This document shows, one piece after another, positions 1,082 through 32,902 of a stretch of 34,447 nucleotides of DNA (within the stretch, counting starts at the first letter, position 1; each line of letters starts with the position of its first letter). Location: positions 1 through 34,447 of the forward strand of contig JAPLZF010000018.1 of NCBI GenBank assembly GCA_026395175.1, written 5' to 3'. The stretch is from Candidatus Staskawiczbacteria bacterium. GTDB taxonomy: Bacteria; Patescibacteriota; Minisyncoccia; Minisyncoccales; Staskawiczbacteraceae. The position numbers and the translations under genes were made by a program. A model generated the notes under the pieces. The model worked only from the letters and a program-made list of their open reading frames with translations. It was not told where the DNA came from and searched no databases.

Positions 1082-1134
1082 AAAAAAAGCGCCGCGTCCT
1101 GAAAGCTTCAGATGAAACTATCAGAATTTGGCGC
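1082..1134 (-). terminator. Structured intrinsic terminator of cassette A (minus strand)
   Basis: Minus strand GCGCC-AAATT-CTGA-T-AGTTTC-ATCT-GAAGCT-T-TCAG-GACGC-GGCGC-TTTTTTT. Confidence 0.75.
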
Positions 1135-1160
1135 ATATTGCAGATGGTCGTTGTGGGCGG

Positions 1161-1478
1161 TTATATGTGGTCTTCCTCGGGTAGCGGTCCAGATATGTCA
1201 GGGCTATCTGGAATTGGAAAAGCTCTAATCCCCGGTGACTCTGGCGGTTCGGGCAGGTCGGGAATTTCCCGTCTAAGTAGGTCTGCAGGTTCGTGAAGTA
1301 TGATTTCCCTATCTGTTTCTATGAAGAAATCATCTTGGTCGTTGGTGTAGTAGCAGCAAGCGCTTTCGGGTTTGTACAAGCCAAGTATCGTCGCTGCAAC
1401 CAGCTCGTTGATAGCTTCAACGATACCCATGCACTGCTGTTTATTGGTCTTTACCACTTTGTGAACACGAAAAACCAT
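1161..1478 (-). CDS. Cassette A small protein, 105 aa, Pro-rich acidic C-terminus, unknown function
   Basis: ORF preceded on the minus strand by SD GGAAAGGAGAA and a promoter; followed by a terminator. Confidence 0.6.
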   Translation of the reverse strand: MVFRVHKVVKTNKQQCMGIVEAINELVAATILGLYKPESACCYYTNDQDDFFIETDREIILHEPADLLRREIPDLPEPPESPGIRAFPIPDSPDISGPLPEEDHI

Positions 1479-1521
1479 GATGCGATTCTCCTTTCCGAGG
1501 AAAAAGTTTCCAACACACGGT

Positions 1522-1584
1522 CATCCGACACATTGTCAAACGACTAAGAATATAGTATAATTAAAATGTTTGTAAGTCAAGGTT
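1522..1584. repeat. 63-bp repeat copy 1 carrying back-to-back promoters
   Basis: Identical to 2400-2462: CATCCGACACATTGTCAAACGACTAAGAATATAGTATAATTAAAATGTTTGTAAGTCAAGGTT. Confidence 0.95.
1552..1580 (-). promoter_or_regulatory. Sigma70-like promoter driving cassette A
   Basis: Minus strand TTGACT-N17-TACTAT. Confidence 0.65.
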
Positions 1585-1624
1585 TTTGACTTTAAAGAAA
1601 AACATAATATAATATAATAAAAAT

Positions 1625-1849
1625 ATGGTAAGAGAATTTACAGCAATATATAAAAAAAATAAGAAATGGTATTTAGGCTGGATTGAGGAAATTCCAGGAG
1701 TGAATACCCAAGGGAAAACTCTTAAGGAAACAAAAGAAAACTTAAAAGAGGCGCTTTTGCTTATTTTGGAAACTAATAAATTTTTAAATAAAAAAGAAAT
1801 ATTGAAAGGAAAAGTTATAAAAGAGCCGCTTTCTGTTTGCACCGAATAG
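1625..1849 (+). CDS. hicB: HicB-like antitoxin, 74 aa
   Basis: MVREFTAIYKKNKKWYLGWIEEIPGVNTQGKTLKETKENLKEALLLIL, typical HicB partial RNase H fold; adjacent to a HicA ORF; TTGACT-N16-type promoter at about 1586. Confidence 0.85.
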   Translation: MVREFTAIYKKNKKWYLGWIEEIPGVNTQGKTLKETKENLKEALLLILETNKFLNKKEILKGKVIKEPLSVCTE

Positions 1850-1850
1850 G

Positions 1851-2045
1851 ATGAAAAGAAGAAATTTTATAAAATATCTTTACGAAAATAAGTGTGTATT
1901 TGTAAGAGAGGGCGCCAAGCATAGCGTCTTTTTTAATCCGTTAGCCAGAAGATCTTCTACTGTGCCAAGGCACAATGAACTTGACGATGATTTAGCTAAA
2001 AAGATTTGTCAGGATTTAGGTATAAAAATAATAAATAGAAAATAA
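1851..2045 (+). CDS. hicA: HicA-like mRNA interferase toxin, 64 aa
   Basis: MKRRNFIKYLYENKCVFVREGAKHSVFFNPLARRSSTVPRHNELDDDLAKKICQDLGI, HicA/YcfA-like dsRBD motif including catalytic His region (GAKHSVF). Confidence 0.88.
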   Translation: MKRRNFIKYLYENKCVFVREGAKHSVFFNPLARRSSTVPRHNELDDDLAKKICQDLGIKIINRK

Positions 2046-2060
2046 ACTTTGAAAATTTGC

Positions 2061-2109
2061 AAAAAAAAGCGCCGCGTCCCGAAAATCAAAGATTTCCAGA
2101 ATTTGGCGT
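2061..2109 (-). terminator. Structured intrinsic terminator of cassette B (minus strand)
   Basis: Minus strand ACGCC-AAATT-CTGGAAATC-TTT-GATTTTCGG-GACGC-GGCGC-TTTTTTTT. Confidence 0.75.
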
Positions 2110-2143
2110 ATGAGCGAGCCGAATCGCATGGTCACTGCATGGA

Positions 2144-2356
2144 TCAGCTTTTCTTCTTGGATCCATCCCACGGATCGGTTGGGTCTTGAAACGTTGGAGT
2201 TGTGGGCGATTCGGGAATTTCCCGCTCCATAATCAACCACCTGTCTTCCTTGATACAGACTACTCTCCATCCCTTGTCAGCGAATCCGTTAATAACATTC
2301 TTCATCAGGCTGCCACCGGTATGTTCTATATCTGCGACTTCGTATTCCCATTTCAT
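2144..2356 (-). CDS. Cassette B small protein, 70 aa, DUF4177-like N-terminus with Pro-rich tail
   Basis: MKWEYEVADI...GFADKGWRVVCIKEDRWLIMEREIP resembles the WEY...GWELV...RWLIF pattern of DUF4177; SD GAAAGGAGAA upstream. Confidence 0.6.
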   Translation of the reverse strand: MKWEYEVADIEHTGGSLMKNVINGFADKGWRVVCIKEDRWLIMEREIPESPTTPTFQDPTDPWDGSKKKS

Positions 2357-2399
2357 GGCGCAGTTCTCCTTTCACAGAGAGAATACTTTCACACACTGC

Positions 2400-2462
2400 C
2401 ATCCGACACATTGTCAAACGACTAAGAATATAGTATAATTAAAATGTTTGTAAGTCAAGGTT
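2400..2462. repeat. 63-bp repeat copy 2 carrying back-to-back promoters
   Basis: Perfect match to 1522-1584. Confidence 0.95.
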
Positions 2463-2545: not shown

Positions 2546-3742
2546 ATGGCAACAGAAAAATTTGAGAGGTCTAAACCTCACGTAAACGTTGGTACCATTG
2601 GTCACGTTGATCATGGAAAAACCACATTGTCCGCCGCAATTATGAAAATAACAAAAATGCGCGGTTTTAAGGGCTCTGACAAAGATGTAAATCAAATTGA
2701 CGCTTCACCAGAAGAAAAAGCAAGAGGAGTAACGATTTCTATTACACATTTGGAATATGAAACAGCAAAAAGGCACTATGCTTTAATTGACTGCCCGGGT
2801 CACGCTGACTACATCAAAAACATGATTACGGGAGCTGCTCAAATGGACGGAGGAATTTTATTGGTTTCTGCTCCAGACGGACCTATGCCTCAAACAAAAG
2901 AGCACATTTTGCTGGCCAGACAAGTAGGTTTGCCATCATTGGTTGTGTTTATGAATAAATGTGATATGGTTGACGACCCAGAAATTTTGGACTTAGTTGA
3001 ATCAGAAGTTAGAGAACTTTTAAAGAAAAATGGTTATCCAGGAGACGAAACTCCTATTATAAGAGGTTCTGCCACAGAAGCATTAAAAACATCTTCAATT
3101 GACGACGCAGCAGCAAAACCAATTGTTGAATTATTGGATGCAGTTGACAATTATGTTCCAGAGCCAGTTAGAGAATTGGACAAGCCATTTTCTATGGCAA
3201 TTGAAGACGTGTTTTCAATTGAAGGAAGAGGAACAGTGGCTACAGGAAGAATTTCAAGAGGAGTTATTAAGCCAAATGACGAAGTTGAAATAATTGGTAT
3301 CAGGCCAACACAAAAAACAGTTGTTGTATCGGTTGAAATGTTCCAAAAATCTTTAGACCAAGGAAACGCCGGAGACAACGTTGGAATTTTGTTAAGAGGC
3401 TTGAAAAAGGAAGATGTTGAAAGAGGACAGGTTATTTGCAAGCCAGGCTCTATCAATCCACATACAGAATTTGAGGCAGAAGTTTATGTCTTGTCAAAAG
3501 ATGAAGGCGGACGACATACGCCATTTTTCTCCGGCTACAAACCGCAGTTATACATTGGAACTTCAGATATTACCGGCGACGTAACTTTGGCAGAAGGTAC
3601 AGAAATGGTAATGCCGGGAGATACAGCCACTTTGAAAGTTAAATTGATTGTGCCTGTTGCTTTGGAAGAAAAAGGCAAGTTTGCCATTAGAGAAGGTGGA
3701 AAAACAGTCGGTTCTGGAGTTGTAATAAAGATTATTAAGTAA
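2546..3742 (+). CDS. tuf: Elongation factor Tu
   Basis: [46 protein letters not shown]. Confidence 0.98.
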
Positions 3743-14520: not shown

Positions 14521-14548
14521 TACCATTCTAGAATTACAAATTTTTTGT

Positions 14549-14587
14549 AAAAAAACAGTCGCCGGCGTAAAACTACCACTCGGCGAC
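14549..14587 (-). terminator. Intrinsic terminator of the minus-strand unit C
   Basis: Minus strand GTCGCCG-N16-CGGCGAC-TG-TTTTTTT. Confidence 0.8.
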
Positions 14588-14616
14588 CTCACTCTTCTCG
14601 CTGAAGGCGAGACCTA

Positions 14617-14955
14617 TCAACATTCTTGTTGGCGCATGTCCTCCTCTTCCGCCATCAGCTCTCGCGAACCGAAATAGCGATAAAGTGGGAGACCTAAGGC
14701 GATCATAACGGGAATCTGCAAAAAACACGCGCAATTGACGGCGTTCTCGTAGACGACTCCGGTGGGGTGACTCGCTGTCGTTTGGATTGTCGACCAGATG
14801 AGCCATCCGTCGAAGGCGATAGTAAACGCCATTCCAATCAGGCACCATGCGAACGCAGCGCGATTGGAAATGAACTCGCTCCCCGCCTTTATGATGCAAA
14901 ACAAATAGAAACACATTCCTACAAGAACTGCTACTAGCGCGACTAACGGGTTCAT
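14617..14955 (-). CDS. Small predicted multi-pass membrane protein, 112 aa, unknown function (unit C)
   Basis: Hydrophobic segments MNPLVALVAVLVGMCFYLFCII, AFAWCLIGMAFTIAFDGWLIW, CACFLQIPVMIALGLPLY; SD TTGAAAGGAGAAAACCATG. Confidence 0.7.
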   Translation of the reverse strand: MNPLVALVAVLVGMCFYLFCIIKAGSEFISNRAAFAWCLIGMAFTIAFDGWLIWSTIQTTASHPTGVVYENAVNCACFLQIPVMIALGLPLYRYFGSRELMAEEEDMRQQEC

Positions 14956-15015
14956 GGTTTTCTCCTTTCAAGAGAGTGTTCACACCGACTACCGGCGTGA
15001 GCAATTTCCATTTGA

Positions 15016-15075
15016 GGGACACAAGTCCCTTCTTTTAAACAGCTAATTTAGTGGTCTAAAAGAAGGGAATGTCCC
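15016..15075 (-). promoter_or_regulatory. Long hairpin in the 5' leader of unit C
   Basis: Minus strand GGGACA-tt-CCCTTCTTTTAGAC-N13-GTTTAAAAGAAGGG-acttg-TGTCCC. Confidence 0.75.
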
Positions 15076-15102
15076 AATTTCAATGTGCTTCACTATATTC
15101 TT

Positions 15103-15131
15103 ATTATAGCACCATTAAGCAAGCTTGTCAA
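15103..15131 (-). promoter_or_regulatory. Perfect-consensus sigma70 promoter for unit C
   Basis: Minus strand TTGACA-N17-TATAAT. Confidence 0.85.
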
Positions 15132-25138: not shown

Positions 25139-28100
25139 ATGATAGCACGCATACTTAGGAATTTTGGTTCGCATGAAGTTCGTTTTTATATCGAGGCGAT
25201 GTCGGCAATGACCGCGGAAGAGCTTGAAATGGTCCGCTGGGTAATTGCCGAAACCTTCGAACCGCTTTTGACGAGAACTGACACGTTTCCCATCAATGGC
25301 TCAACAGTAGAAATCGGTCCACGCATCAACGTGGAAACTCCCGTCTCGACCAACGCGGTAGCGATTTGTCGTGCAATGATGGGGTCAAACAAAGTGATGC
25401 GAGTCGAGTGTTCACGATTGTGCTTGGTGAACCCGTTGATGAGCGTCACGCGAGAAAGGATTCTCGCAGAACATCTGGACGTGATGACGCAGGCTGTCTA
25501 TCCAGAAGAAGGCATCACGAGTTTCGAGTTGGATGTGAAACCTGCGGAGGTGCAGTTTCTCCCGGTTCTCGAACAAGGAGAAGAAGCAATCCGTCAGGCT
25601 AACAAATTACTCGGACTCGGAATGGACGAATGGGACGTGGACTATTACACGAGACTCTTCCGACGATACGGACGAGACCCAACCGACGTGGAATTGTTCC
25701 AGATTGGCAACGCCAACTCGGAACACTCGCGTCACTGGTACTTCAAGGGCAAGCAAGTGATTGACGGTGTGGAGATGCCCGAATGCTTACTCGATATTGT
25801 TCGGTCACCGCTTAGAGCGGTTTCAGGGCAAAACGCAAGTGTTCTGGCTTTCGGCGACAACGTTGGCGCGCTCCATGGTTTCAGAGTGCCGGTTTTTGTA
25901 CCGGCTGAACCATGGAAACCTTCGCCGTTCAAAATCGTGTGGAGAACTCTCCACCCGACAGCGACTGCGGAAACGCACAATCACCCAACCCTTATCTGCC
26001 CCTATCCGGGTGCAGTGACAGGAGCGGGCGGTCGTGAGCGCGACAATCGTGCCGGTGGACGTGGGTCAGCAACAGGATTTGCTGTGGCAGGATACTGCAT
26101 CGGCAATCTGTTTATTCCCGGCTACAAAATCCCTGGTGAAGTCGTTGGTGGCGAAGCGAACGAAAAGCACGCAACGCCCCTTCGAATTCTCATCGAAGGA
26201 AGCAACGGAGTATCGGATTACGGAAATCAATATGGCGAACCGCTCGGATGCGGTTTTACCAGAGCGTTCTGCCAAGTAGTTTCTGGCGAGAGACGCGAAT
26301 TCCGCAAGCCCGTGCTGTACAGCGGAGGTGTTGGATATATCGACGATGCGCATACGGAAAAGCGTACCCCTGAAAAAGGAATGCTTATCGTGGCCATCGG
26401 AGGTCCGGCATACGCCATCGGCGAAGGCGGCGGAGCAGCGTCTAGCATGGTTCAAGGACAGAACGACGCTGGTCTGGATTACAAGTCGGTCCAACGAGGA
26501 AACGGCGAGATGGGAAACAAGACCGGTCGTGTTATTCAGGTGTGTCTGGAAATGGGAGATGAAAACCCCATTGAAAGCATTCATGATCAAGGCGCGGGCG
26601 GTCCGAGCAACGTTCTTACGGAACTCATGGAAACCATCGGTGGAGAGGTGGATATTCGTCAGATTGTCCTTGGTGACAAGACGATGTCCGTACTTTCCAT
26701 TTGGAGTGCCGAATATCAGGAACGATACGGCCTGCTGATCAGGACGGAAATGCTGTGGTTGTTCCAGAGCATCTGCGAACGTGAACGTGTGAACTGCGAA
26801 GTGTTGGGAGAAATCACCGGTGACGGTCACGTCACAGTGATTGATTCGTCAAACAACACAATGCCTGTTCATCTCGATTTGCGGGATATTCTGGGAAAGC
26901 TCCCGCAAAAAACATTCGCGTCCGACCATTTGCCACGGAACTTCGACCCGCCTGTGTTGCCGAGAGATCTTACGATCCGAAAGGCGATCGAGATAACTCT
27001 GCAACAATTGTCGGCAGGTTCCAAAGGCTTCTTGGTGCACAAAGTGGATCGCAGTGTTGGCGGACTGGTTGTACAACAGCCGTGTTGCGGTGTAAGCCAA
27101 GTGCCGATTGCGAATGTTGCAGTTCGTGCCGACAGCTATTTCGGTTTGACCGGCGTAGCCTCGGCGGTTGGCGAACAACCGTTGAAAATGTTGATCGATC
27201 CGAAAGCGGGTGGACGCATGGCCGTCGGAGAAATGGTTACCAACCTGATGTCTGCGGGTGGAATCGATCTCGGCAAGGTTCGTTGTCGCGCCAATTGGAT
27301 GTGCCCGGCAAAGCTCCCTGGCGAGGGTGCTCTTCTCTACGATGCAGCGCAAGCCATGCGAGATACGATGATCAAGCTGGGCATTGCGCCCGACGGAGGA
27401 AAAGATAGCCTCTCAATGGCGGCAACGGTTGGTGGAAAACTGGTGAAAGCGCCCGGCGAGTTGGTAATTCTTGGCTACGCCTCGATGCCCAACATTACAA
27501 AGGTGTTGACACCCGACATCAAAGCTCCCGGGAAAAGTTGTCTGGGTTTGATTGATCTTGGTTTGGGAAAGAATCGCATCGGCGGTTCAGCACTGCTCCA
27601 AGCTCTCAACCAGCTCGGGAACGAAACACCGGATTACGATCCTGAATTGCTCAAAGCGACGTGGCGTGCCATACAAATCCTTCACGATTGCGGGGTAATA
27701 CTTTCGCTTCATGACAGAAGCGACGGTGGCCTCGCAACAACCGTGATCGAAATGTGTCTCGGCGGAAACTGCGGTGCGAATCTCGTTGATGTAAGTGCCG
27801 ATCTGTCGGCTCTCTTTTCGGAAGAGCTCGGTCTTGTCATTGAATATCTTCCGGAAGACGAGGATTTGATTCGACGGGTTTTGAAAAAAGAAGGTGTTCC
27901 TTTCACAGCGGGAATCGGCACAACGACATCTGGCCGTTTTCCACAAGTGTTTGGGATCAACCTTCCCACGCTTCGTCAGTGGTGGGAAGCCACCAGCCAT
28001 CAGTTGGAAAAACTCCAAACGGAAAACGGAGTGGCCGATGAAGCGTTCGCGGGCTACGAAGTCGTTCACGAACCGGCGTACGAACTCAGTTTTACGCCAA

Positions 28101-28927
28101 GCGTGGTGACCGTGAACAACGGCGACTTCTGTCCGAAAGTGGCAATACTGCGCGAGGAAGGATCCAATGGCGATCGAGAAATGTCAGCCGCATTCTACAT
28201 GGCTGGATTGGATCCGTACGACGTCGCGATGAGCGACCTTTTGGCTGGACGAATCACTTTGGAGCAATTCCAAGGTCTTGTCGCGGTCGGAGGTTTCTCA
28301 TTTATGGACGTGTTCGACAGCGCCAAAGGCTGGGCGGGAGTTGTTAAGTTCAACCAGAGACTCAGGGAGATGTTCGATCAGTTTTACGCACGGCAGGACA
28401 CTTTCTCTCTGGGAGTCTGCAACGGATGTCAATGGATGGCACTGCTCGGATGGGTGCCGTTCAAAGGGTTGGACGAAGTTATCCAACCGCGATTCATCCG
28501 CAACCGTTCCAGGAAGTTTGAGTCGTACTGGGTCCAAGTGAAGATTCAACCAAGTCCGTCGGTTTTATTGGCGGGCATGGAAGGATCAATACTCGGCATT
28601 CACGTTGCTCACGGCGAAGGTCAGGTGAAGTTTCCTGATTTGAAAACGCTGGATGCGGTTCGGAAAGGAAATCTGGCGCCTGTCGTCTATGTGGATTCGG
28701 ATGGCAACCCGACCGAGGTGTATCCGCTCAATCCGAACGGATCTGCCGGCGGAATCGCTGCACTCTGTTCACCCGATGGACGACATCTCGCAATGATGCC
28801 TCACCCCGAGCGCGCCTTTCTTCCGTGGCAGTGCCACTACTGGCCTCAGGAATGGTCCAAATATCAGGGTTCGCCTTGGTTGCGGATGTTCCAGAACGCC
28901 CGTACGTGGTGTCTGCAATCCAAATAA
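25139..28927 (+). CDS. purL: Phosphoribosylformylglycinamidine synthase, large single-chain form with C-terminal glutaminase
   Basis: NSEHSRHWYFKGKQ, ETHNHPTLICPYPGAVTGAGGRERD, VAILREEGSNGDREM, LGVCNGCQWMALLGW, NPNGSAGGIAALCSPDGRHLAMMPHPER; SD GGAAAGAGAGG. Confidence 0.97.
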   Translation: MIARILRNFGSHEVRFYIEAMSAMTAEELEMVRWVIAETFEPLLTRTDTFPINGSTVEIGPRINVETPVSTNAVAICRAMMGSNKVMRVECSRLCLVNPLMSVTRERILAEHLDVMTQAVYPEEGITSFELDVKPAEVQFLPVLEQGEEAIRQANKLLGLGMDEWDVDYYTRLFRRYGRDPTDVELFQIGNANSEHSRHWYFKGKQVIDGVEMPECLLDIVRSPLRAVSGQNASVLAFGDNVGALHGFRVPVFVPAEPWKPSPFKIVWRTLHPTATAETHNHPTLICPYPGAVTGAGGRERDNRAGGRGSATGFAVAGYCIGNLFIPGYKIPGEVVGGEANEKHATPLRILIEGSNGVSDYGNQYGEPLGCGFTRAFCQVVSGERREFRKPVLYSGGVGYIDDAHTEKRTPEKGMLIVAIGGPAYAIGEGGGAASSMVQGQNDAGLDYKSVQRGNGEMGNKTGRVIQVCLEMGDENPIESIHDQGAGGPSNVLTELMETIGGEVDIRQIVLGDKTMSVLSIWSAEYQERYGLLIRTEMLWLFQSICERERVNCEVLGEITGDGHVTVIDSSNNTMPVHLDLRDILGKLPQKTFASDHLPRNFDPPVLPRDLTIRKAIEITLQQLSAGSKGFLVHKVDRSVGGLVVQQPCCGVSQVPIANVAVRADSYFGLTGVASAVGEQPLKMLIDPKAGGRMAVGEMVTNLMSAGGIDLGKVRCRANWMCPAKLPGEGALLYDAAQAMRDTMIKLGIAPDGGKDSLSMAATVGGKLVKAPGELVILGYASMPNITKVLTPDIKAPGKSCLGLIDLGLGKNRIGGSALLQALNQLGNETPDYDPELLKATWRAIQILHDCGVILSLHDRSDGGLATTVIEMCLGGNCGANLVDVSADLSALFSEELGLVIEYLPEDEDLIRRVLKKEGVPFTAGIGTTTSGRFPQVFGINLPTLRQWWEATSHQLEKLQTENGVADEAFAGYEVVHEPAYELSFTPSVVTVNNGDFCPKVAILREEGSNGDREMSAAFYMAGLDPYDVAMSDLLAGRITLEQFQGLVAVGGFSFMDVFDSAKGWAGVVKFNQRLREMFDQFYARQDTFSLGVCNGCQWMALLGWVPFKGLDEVIQPRFIRNRSRKFESYWVQVKIQPSPSVLLAGMEGSILGIHVAHGEGQVKFPDLKTLDAVRKGNLAPVVYVDSDGNPTEVYPLNPNGSAGGIAALCSPDGRHLAMMPHPERAFLPWQCHYWPQEWSKYQGSPWLRMFQNARTWCLQSK

Positions 28928-29121: not shown

Positions 29122-30273
29122 ATGGATGGCACTGGAGGAACGAAGTATGCCGAGGATGGAGTAGACGTGGTCGAAGGAGACACATTCAGCCGATATGCTG
29201 GTGCTCTGTGTCGGTCGACTTACAAGAATTCTCGGTACGTGGAAGTGCGGGATTTTTCCAGCGGTCATTTTCGGGGTCCTCGAGGTTTCAGACTGAAGGG
29301 ACTGCCCGCAGACTGCTGGCTGGACGCAACTCCTGATGGTGATGGAACGAAAGTCATATTGGTGGACGCCGCCGGCGACTACGACAACTCGGCTTACGGC
29401 TGGATTGCGATGACCTGCGGAGATATCACGCGCTGGGGTGGAATTCCGCTTGTCCTGGTCAACAACCTGGACACAGAGAATATTGGCAAGCTCGGTGATT
29501 CGGTTAACAATGCGTTCCGCGCTATGTTAGCTAGCGCTCAACAGATTGCCAACGAAAACCAGCTTGTTCTATTCAAGGGCGAAACAGCAGAACTTCCGGG
29601 TTGCGTAACTTCGCCAAACCACGTGGCTCTCGCAAGGTATCTTTGGTCGGGAGTTTGCGTTGGCGCCTACAATCCGCGGACAATCATTACCGGCGACCAT
29701 ATTTGCGAAGGTCTGGTGGTAATGGCTCTGCGCGAACTGGGCTTTCGCAACAATGGCATCAGTTCGGCGCGCACGGCCATTATAAAACGTTTCAGATCGC
29801 TTTCTTGCCCAGAGGCGCAGGAAGCTGTTAAAAAGGCGGCAAGGCATGCTGTTCTTTACGACAGATTTATGGCAACCGCCAACGGCTGGTTCGCCAAAGA
29901 CTTCGCGCCGCTTATCCCTATGTATCTCATTGTGCATTTGACGGGTGGGGCTTTCAAGTCGAAGCTTGCTGAGGACATTCTCTTCCCGCGAGGACTCTCG
30001 GCATATCTCGACAACCTGTGGGAACCGCCTGAAATTATGCGTCAGTGTGCAGAATGGCGTAATATGGACGACGAGGAGTGCTACGAAACCTGGAATGGCG
30101 GACAAGGGGCTCTCGTGATTATCAACGCCACTGACGAAAAAAGGTTTGGCGAATTAGCGGCCAGTTTCGGCATCGAAGCGAAGAATGCCGGCAGGATCAC
30201 CAAAGAAGCCAAGCCGAACGTGGTCATCGAATCCAAATTCACCGGAAAGACAATCTTATGGTTTGCGAAGTAA
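29122..30273 (+). CDS. purM: Divergent phosphoribosylformylglycinamidine cyclo-ligase (AIR synthetase, PurM-like)
   Basis: YAEDGVDVVEGDTFSRYAG, DGDGTKVILVDAAGDYDNSAYGWIAMTCGDITRWGGIPLVLVNNL; SD GGAGGAGAAAAGG; directly after purL. Confidence 0.82.
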   Translation: MDGTGGTKYAEDGVDVVEGDTFSRYAGALCRSTYKNSRYVEVRDFSSGHFRGPRGFRLKGLPADCWLDATPDGDGTKVILVDAAGDYDNSAYGWIAMTCGDITRWGGIPLVLVNNLDTENIGKLGDSVNNAFRAMLASAQQIANENQLVLFKGETAELPGCVTSPNHVALARYLWSGVCVGAYNPRTIITGDHICEGLVVMALRELGFRNNGISSARTAIIKRFRSLSCPEAQEAVKKAARHAVLYDRFMATANGWFAKDFAPLIPMYLIVHLTGGAFKSKLAEDILFPRGLSAYLDNLWEPPEIMRQCAEWRNMDDEECYETWNGGQGALVIINATDEKRFGELAASFGIEAKNAGRITKEAKPNVVIESKFTGKTILWFAK

Positions 30274-32542: not shown

Positions 32543-32902
32543 ATGTCTGAGGAAATTCCGAAAGTTCTTGTTATTGGAGGTACAGAATTGCTTTGGCAGT
32601 GTTGGCAACACATTTTTGCCGGAAAAGCAGAGCTAATCTGCGCGCAGTCCTTAGACAAGGGCTGGGAGATGTTTATGGCCAACGATTTTGCTGCCATTGT
32701 TGTGGAAGCGCTTTCCGGTGGTACTATCGCAGACACCGAAGATTTCGTAAGAGATATTCGAGTTGGCTTTGACGGGCCAATAGTCGGCTTGTCAACCGAG
32801 CTGACATATCGCACGAGGCTGCAGGGGGCAGGATGCAGTCACAAATGCGGAAACGCCGCAGTCCCCGACATTATCTGTATGGTTCTCGGTATCCACCGAT
32901 GA
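32543..32902 (+). CDS. Small CheY-like (pseudo)receiver protein, 119 aa
   Basis: PKVLVIGGTELLWQCWQHIF...AQSLDKGWEMFMANDFAAIVVEAL...GPIVGLSTELTYRTRLQGAGCSHKCGN; SD CAGGAGG. Confidence 0.65.
   Translation: MSEEIPKVLVIGGTELLWQCWQHIFAGKAELICAQSLDKGWEMFMANDFAAIVVEALSGGTIADTEDFVRDIRVGFDGPIVGLSTELTYRTRLQGAGCSHKCGNAAVPDIICMVLGIHR

Follow-up and report, generated by a model that had tools for sequence, protein, structure and literature searches.

Inverted small-gene units between fusA and tuf and at other joints of the ribosomal gene cluster in a family of Patescibacteria: probable moron-like accessory genes

Ribosomal operons are usually taken to be conserved and closed to insertion, and Patescibacteria to be stripped down. 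The stretch of DNA analysed here (the window, 34,447 nucleotides in all, from the genome that we label G000; G, C, and L numbers denote genomes, contigs, and loci) raises the question of what two small units that face backwards between fusA and tuf, the genes for EF-G and EF-Tu, are and how they came to be there. From the end of fusA (position 1041) to the start of tuf (2546), the interval holds, in this order, unit A on the minus strand, hicBA on the plus strand, and unit B on the minus strand. Both neighbors are open reading frames on the plus strand: the 3' part of fusA upstream (34-1041), which served as the query for finding relatives, and tuf downstream (2546-3742). Among named organisms, Candidatus Staskawiczbacteria come closest in EF-G (79% identity).

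Units A (1082-1584) and B (2062-2462), each given here from terminator to promoter, are of like build, as the earlier note on this DNA had proposed. They share a 63-bp block (1522-1584 and 2400-2462, assigned to neither strand), the identity of which we confirmed, and the similarity extends beyond it, at 84% over 109 nt, into the leader (1476-1584 and 2354-2462). Each leader carries the Shine-Dalgarno sequence GAAAGGAGAA ahead of an ATG (in unit A at 1486-1495, minus strand, as read from the sequence), and a stem-loop (1520-1544, minus strand) close to where the A transcript would begin overlaps the -35 box of a plus-strand promoter. At the other end, the terminators of the two units match at 22 of 23 nt (1082-1104 and 2062-2084), and folding reveals a hairpin plus T-run in both: in unit A (1082-1134, minus strand), a GCGCC..GGCGC hairpin followed by T7, with a fold of -23.3 kcal/mol and a z-score of -5.5, and in unit B the corresponding fold at 2062-2109 (minus strand). 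A simple terminator scan missed both, because the hairpins are larger than its limits. The small ORFs in between are different. ORF A (1161-1478, minus strand; 105 aa) consists of an N-terminal domain and a proline-rich tail with REIPD, ORF B (2144-2356, minus strand; 70 aa) is DUF4177-like with the tail EREIPE, and the two do not align outside the REIP tail. In that tail, both ORFs contain the 14-mer CGGGAAATTCCCGA (1258-1271 for REIPD and 2211-2224 for REIPE, minus strand), which the earlier note did not mention. Between the units, adjacent HicB and HicA domains define, by domain content, a putative HicBA toxin-antitoxin pair, in agreement with the earlier reading: the hicB antitoxin gene (1625-1849, plus strand) matches the UPF0150/HicB-like family, and the hicA toxin gene (1851-2045, plus strand) matches PF07927 above the cut-off.

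The 63-bp block had been taken for the promoter repeat of these units. It is indeed promoter-like, but its best sigma-70 match lies on the plus strand and overlaps a weaker one on the minus strand, such that the -10 elements overlap. By consensus scan, copy 1 contains the plus-strand promoter TTGTCA-17-TATAAT (11/12; 1533-1561) and the minus-strand promoter TTGACT-17-TACTAT (9/12; 1552-1580); in copy 2, the same elements lie at 2411-2439, directed towards tuf, and at 2430-2458. Two further promoter-like sites on the plus strand are TTGACT-16-TATAAT ahead of hicBA (1586-1613; 11/12, consensus scan) and TTGACT-17-TAATAT ahead of tuf (2475-2503), and a site similar to the latter is retained in loci without a unit. 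Because the stronger plus-strand match overlaps the minus-strand one, and strong overlapping divergent promoter pairs occur at 8 of 22 loci against a shuffle mean of 0.2, the block is probably a bidirectional promoter that would serve the small ORF on the minus strand and hicBA or tuf on the plus strand. For the conserved leader sequence TTTGACAAT, also considered as an untranslated-region motif, the simpler explanation is that it forms the -35 box of the plus-strand promoter.

The search for further copies of the block, which the earlier note had called for, covered 148 genomes and found two in G000, both at this locus, and none in the 147 relatives. The exact terminator of A and B is likewise present, among these 148 genomes, only at the fusA-tuf locus of G000. 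Since the block is absent elsewhere in G000 and from the relatives, its two copies are, judging by sequence, a local duplication, and neither the block nor the exact terminator, both confined to this locus, serves as the mark of a genome-wide family. Matches to the block in G007 and G035 lie in cassettes upstream of tuf, and weak matches in L013, L015, L018, L019, L026, and L028 turned out, on reading, to be ordinary sequence.

Comparison of orthologous fusA-tuf intervals, also proposed in the earlier note, gives a different picture for the site than for the block. In 8 genomes of the family, the site is empty (65-183 bp); in the remaining ones, it is filled (337-2423 bp), with small ORFs that are usually on the opposite strand and encode DUF4177-like proteins (often), a zinc ribbon (G006), a Clp_N protein (G027), or orphans. 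An opposite-strand unit is found in 20 of the 29 family loci, a count that was made by hand and includes G003 and G006, the loci of which are split between contigs. Elsewhere in the order, such a unit is found in 2 of 28 loci from other families (Fisher p 1.5e-6, with related genomes treated as independent). The alternatives had been framed as a local duplication, with the whole A-hicBA-B arrangement carried by relatives that lack empty sites, or a modular family. Of the former, the confinement of the block holds, but the A-hicBA-B arrangement is absent from relatives, and empty sites exist. Some details of the site in individual genomes are worth recording. The DUF4177-like ORF of the G015 unit (L042) is broken by an in-frame stop, perhaps in a decaying unit; contigs end just upstream of tuf in G003, G004, G005, G006, and G023, which would be expected if strains differ there and is, at most, a faint hint of that; a tRNA-Leu lies in the G141 gap (L211:1290-1362), and a tRNA-Pro in the G014 stretch (L178:257-328).

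Units of this kind are not limited to fusA-tuf. A terminator pattern search, together with a scan of the str-S10-spc cluster in family genomes, located like units at rplC-rplD (7), rpsH-rplF (6), secY-adk (5), rplD-rplW (1), and rplO-secY (1), whereas ten other joints of the cluster never exceed 250 bp; the systematic scan comprised the joints around this cluster, so a concentration of units in ribosomal operons, compared with elsewhere in the genome, is provisional. The earlier notion of a modular unit that sits at the boundaries of operons, its ends shared and its cargo swapped, is supported, and analogous units occupy other joints of the ribosomal operons. The window itself contains one, between secY and adk (14540-15131, minus strand; GC 0.51), with a structured leader, a terminator, an ORF (14617-14955, minus strand), and the promoter TTGACA-17-TATAAT (15131-15103, minus strand), which matches the consensus at 12 of 12 positions, compared with 9 of 12 for the minus-strand promoters of A and B. 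Among joints with an ORF and a terminator, the opposite strand is used in 35 and the same strand in 4 (binomial p 3e-7), and outside fusA-tuf, the ratio is 20:0, these counts resting on a crude ORF-plus-terminator detector and treating related genomes as independent. Same-strand units do exist: a pair beside rpsP, on contig C9 of G000, lies on the operon's own strand.

A long hairpin of the form GGGACAT-CCCTTCTTTCAAATCATTA...TAGTGATTTGAAAGAAGGG-TGTCCC makes up a second type of leader. In G000, it is followed by unrelated small ORFs at three loci (window 15015-15075, minus strand; C9:20990-21155; C13:2400-2590), and it is also found at G003:C15:6007. The fold z-scores of these leaders range from -6.3 to -7.6, the core recurs in G025:C131 and G020:C88, and leaders of either type have no Rfam match above the cut-off. 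Elsewhere in the window, a GC-rich (0.53) purL-like (FGAR-AT) gene with its own leader and terminator (25139-28927) stands among AT-rich genes, next to a gene (29122-30273), again with its own leader and terminator, that has a weak, sub-cut-off AIRS_C (purM-type) match; by their sequence features, both are likely foreign. A GC-rich 119-aa ORF (32543-32902) has its own terminator and no family match.

The proteins present another facet of the problem. For ORF B, the match to DUF4177 (PF13783; E 7e-4, 20.2 bits) is below the gathering score of 25 bits, and two relatives in the ORF B profile exceed the Pfam cut-off for this family (28.6 and 38.2 bits). The AlphaFold2 (AF2) model of ORF B, built with 22 relatives, has a pLDDT of 86, and its best viral Foldseek match is a DUF4177 protein (E 1.7e-3, prob 1.0), with phage DUF4177 proteins among the matches; the protein is thus predicted to adopt a DUF4177-like fold. 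Among solved structures, no convincing match was found. Within the family, matches to the DUF4177-like profile are overwhelmingly at fusA-tuf. ORF A has no match in Pfam, NCBIfam, or PHROG, and its AF2 model is poor (pLDDT 53). Membership of ORF A in DUF4177 was considered and rejected, only its REIP tail aligning with ORF B. The N-terminal domain of ORF A has one relative, in G013 (38% over 75 aa), which does not carry the REIP tail, and we count this occurrence without the tail in favor of the moron-like reading set out below. As to function, our guess is that the cargo products are small phage-type accessory proteins, with the DUF4177 fold, that would be of use under certain conditions and not for assembling ribosomes.

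In DUF4177-like proteins, the tail, REIP followed by E or D, stands behind the final strand of the domain; ORF A, a zinc ribbon, and a further orphan carry it as well. The same 12 nt encode 8 of 10 such tails, for which the printed chance figure of about 1e-15 presumes an independence that related sequences do not have, and these shared nucleotides appear to be a sign of common origin or of a nucleotide-level constraint. The near-palindrome CGGGAAATTCCCG (CGGGAA-A-TTCCCG; 1258-1271, 2211-2224, and the tails of relatives) has 8 of its 9 occurrences across 36 genomes inside these units.

The units of G000 are foreign in composition (GC3 0.47-0.62, CAI 0.34-0.53, compared with GC3 0.24-0.39 and CAI 0.61-0.75 for resident genes). 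The composition of hicBA is resident-like, unlike that of A and B, and this pair therefore looks like a separate arrival. Many units of genus g8 are AT-rich and close to the composition of the host, so not all units are recent arrivals; foreign composition marks some units but not every one.

In the light of these observations, we consider it probable that the units are moron-like accessory transcription units that ribosomal operons tolerate in the inverted orientation and that are locally duplicated and exchange their cargo. Units A and B would both belong to a class of accessory mini-gene transcription units that is enriched in this clade. Every such unit would have a promoter of its own, a hairpin leader, a Shine-Dalgarno sequence, one small ORF as a rule, and an intrinsic terminator, and would act autonomously. 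When inverted, these units would be tolerated at a small number of recurring joints within the str-S10-spc cluster, and the orientation would be set by selection: a strong terminator in the direction of the operon would cut off the downstream ribosomal genes, whereas an inverted one would not. At fusA-tuf, the unit and the fusA/tuf strand would use one overlapping bidirectional promoter. In G000, the promoter-leader region appears to have been duplicated, giving rise to A and B, with hicBA coming separately between them, and the part of the ORF upstream of the REIP tail would have been exchanged, with the tail itself, the promoter, the leader, and the arms of the terminator left in place. A bolder extension, which we put forward tentatively as possible but hardly probable, is that these are an undescribed class of inverted, self-contained mini-gene cassettes for which the ribosomal cluster is a platform, the promoter-leader, tail, and terminator acting as homology arms for the exchange of small proteins, such that species would differ in the set of small proteins that they express strongly.

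Somewhat unlikely, in our assessment, is the alternative whereby a DUF4177 gene was an ancient resident, inverted between fusA and tuf before the family arose, and the present diversity stems from divergence, tandem duplication, and loss, with no insertion at this site. The G141 genome, from another family, has a DUF4177-like gene at the same site and in the same orientation (L211), with a protein and leader similar to those of G016, and this speaks for an old resident, as do the promoter architecture kept in several species and the tandem DUF4177-like ORFs in G014, G002, and G003. However, such a history does not readily accommodate the unrelated cargo at the same site (Clp_N, zinc ribbon, ORF A, and others), the same kind of units at rplC-rplD, rpsH-rplF, and secY-adk, the foreign composition in G000, or the rarity of opposite-strand units outside the family (those 2 of 28, G141 being one).

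A family of mobile, integron-like cassettes, moved by a dedicated recombinase acting in trans on the 14-mer or the terminator arms as the recombination site, is very unlikely. The constancy of the short 14-mer amid sequence that differs on both sides, the scattered joints, and the second-type leader common to three G000 loci would fit such a mechanism, but many units do not have the 14-mer, the 63-bp block and the exact terminator are found only here, and in the unit loci that we read, there is no recombinase and no att or attC-like site. Searches for viral, phage, and plasmid carriers, in which phages and plasmids were queried with ORF B by tblastn and viral contigs with DNA patterns, were negative; of a phage or plasmid origin, considered separately, the only trace was two viral 14-mer matches, attributable to chance, and no donor was found. 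With neither a recombinase nor an att site found in those loci, and no viral source in these searches, the units do not qualify as a mobile-element family, and a mobile element defined by the 63-bp block or by the exact terminator is not supported, both being restricted to this locus. It is, finally, very improbable that the bidirectional promoter and an antisense transcript tune fusA and tuf (or hicBA), with the ORFs incidental: the plus-strand promoter of the block outscores the minus-strand one and is conserved across species, but the DUF4177-like ORFs are conserved at the protein level, with Shine-Dalgarno sites and two relatives above the Pfam cut-off, and eight relatives have no unit at all.

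With head-on, foreign-looking small genes at fixed joints of its ribosomal cluster, this family lends itself to asking where an operon can accept an insertion and why the direction of the insert matters. Small accessory proteins that ordinary annotation skips can be sought in these units, which also provide a concrete list of structured leaders and candidate bidirectional promoters whose expression could be assayed.

Among known systems, morons come closest. A moron is recognized by insertion between genes that are adjacent in relatives, its own promoter, and its own terminator. Like phage morons, the units occur in some genomes and not in others between genes that are neighbors in relatives, have their own terminator and, by consensus, a candidate promoter, are often of foreign composition, and encode small accessory proteins; unlike them, they are chromosomal rather than prophage-borne, reside in a bacterial ribosomal cluster, and are inverted, at fixed joints, with a shared bidirectional promoter. 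Morons are defined by independent regulation (PMC7380047). We call the units moron-like but do not file them as morons because they lie outside a phage genome and have no known fitness effect. Our search of the open-access literature brought up no account of such units from ribosomal operons; the kind of unit is known, and, as far as this limited search goes, the setting is novel. With the DUF4177 family, ORF B and many of its relatives share the M-x-x-W-E-Y start, the G-W motif, and the beta-alpha-beta-beta fold, but ORF B falls below the Pfam cut-off, has the extra REIPEP tail, and occurs in a different gene setting. Other members of this family include YjzH, reported from an RNA-binding fraction (PMC12456014), and PEG 446, with reported antibacterial activity (PMC11322243), properties that are not transferable as such to the proteins of the units. 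Integron gene cassettes are similarly modular small genes with changing cargo in a fixed place, but here, no integrase or attC is seen, the units run opposite to the host operon, each has a putative promoter of its own, and the ends of A and B are not repeated at several genomic sites as those of a mobile element or integron cassette would be. As at accessory-gene hotspots between core genes, the flanks are conserved and the content varies, a toxin-antitoxin pair being part of it; from such hotspots, the units are set apart by the strong orientation bias, their very small, stand-alone form, and their location inside ribosomal operons.
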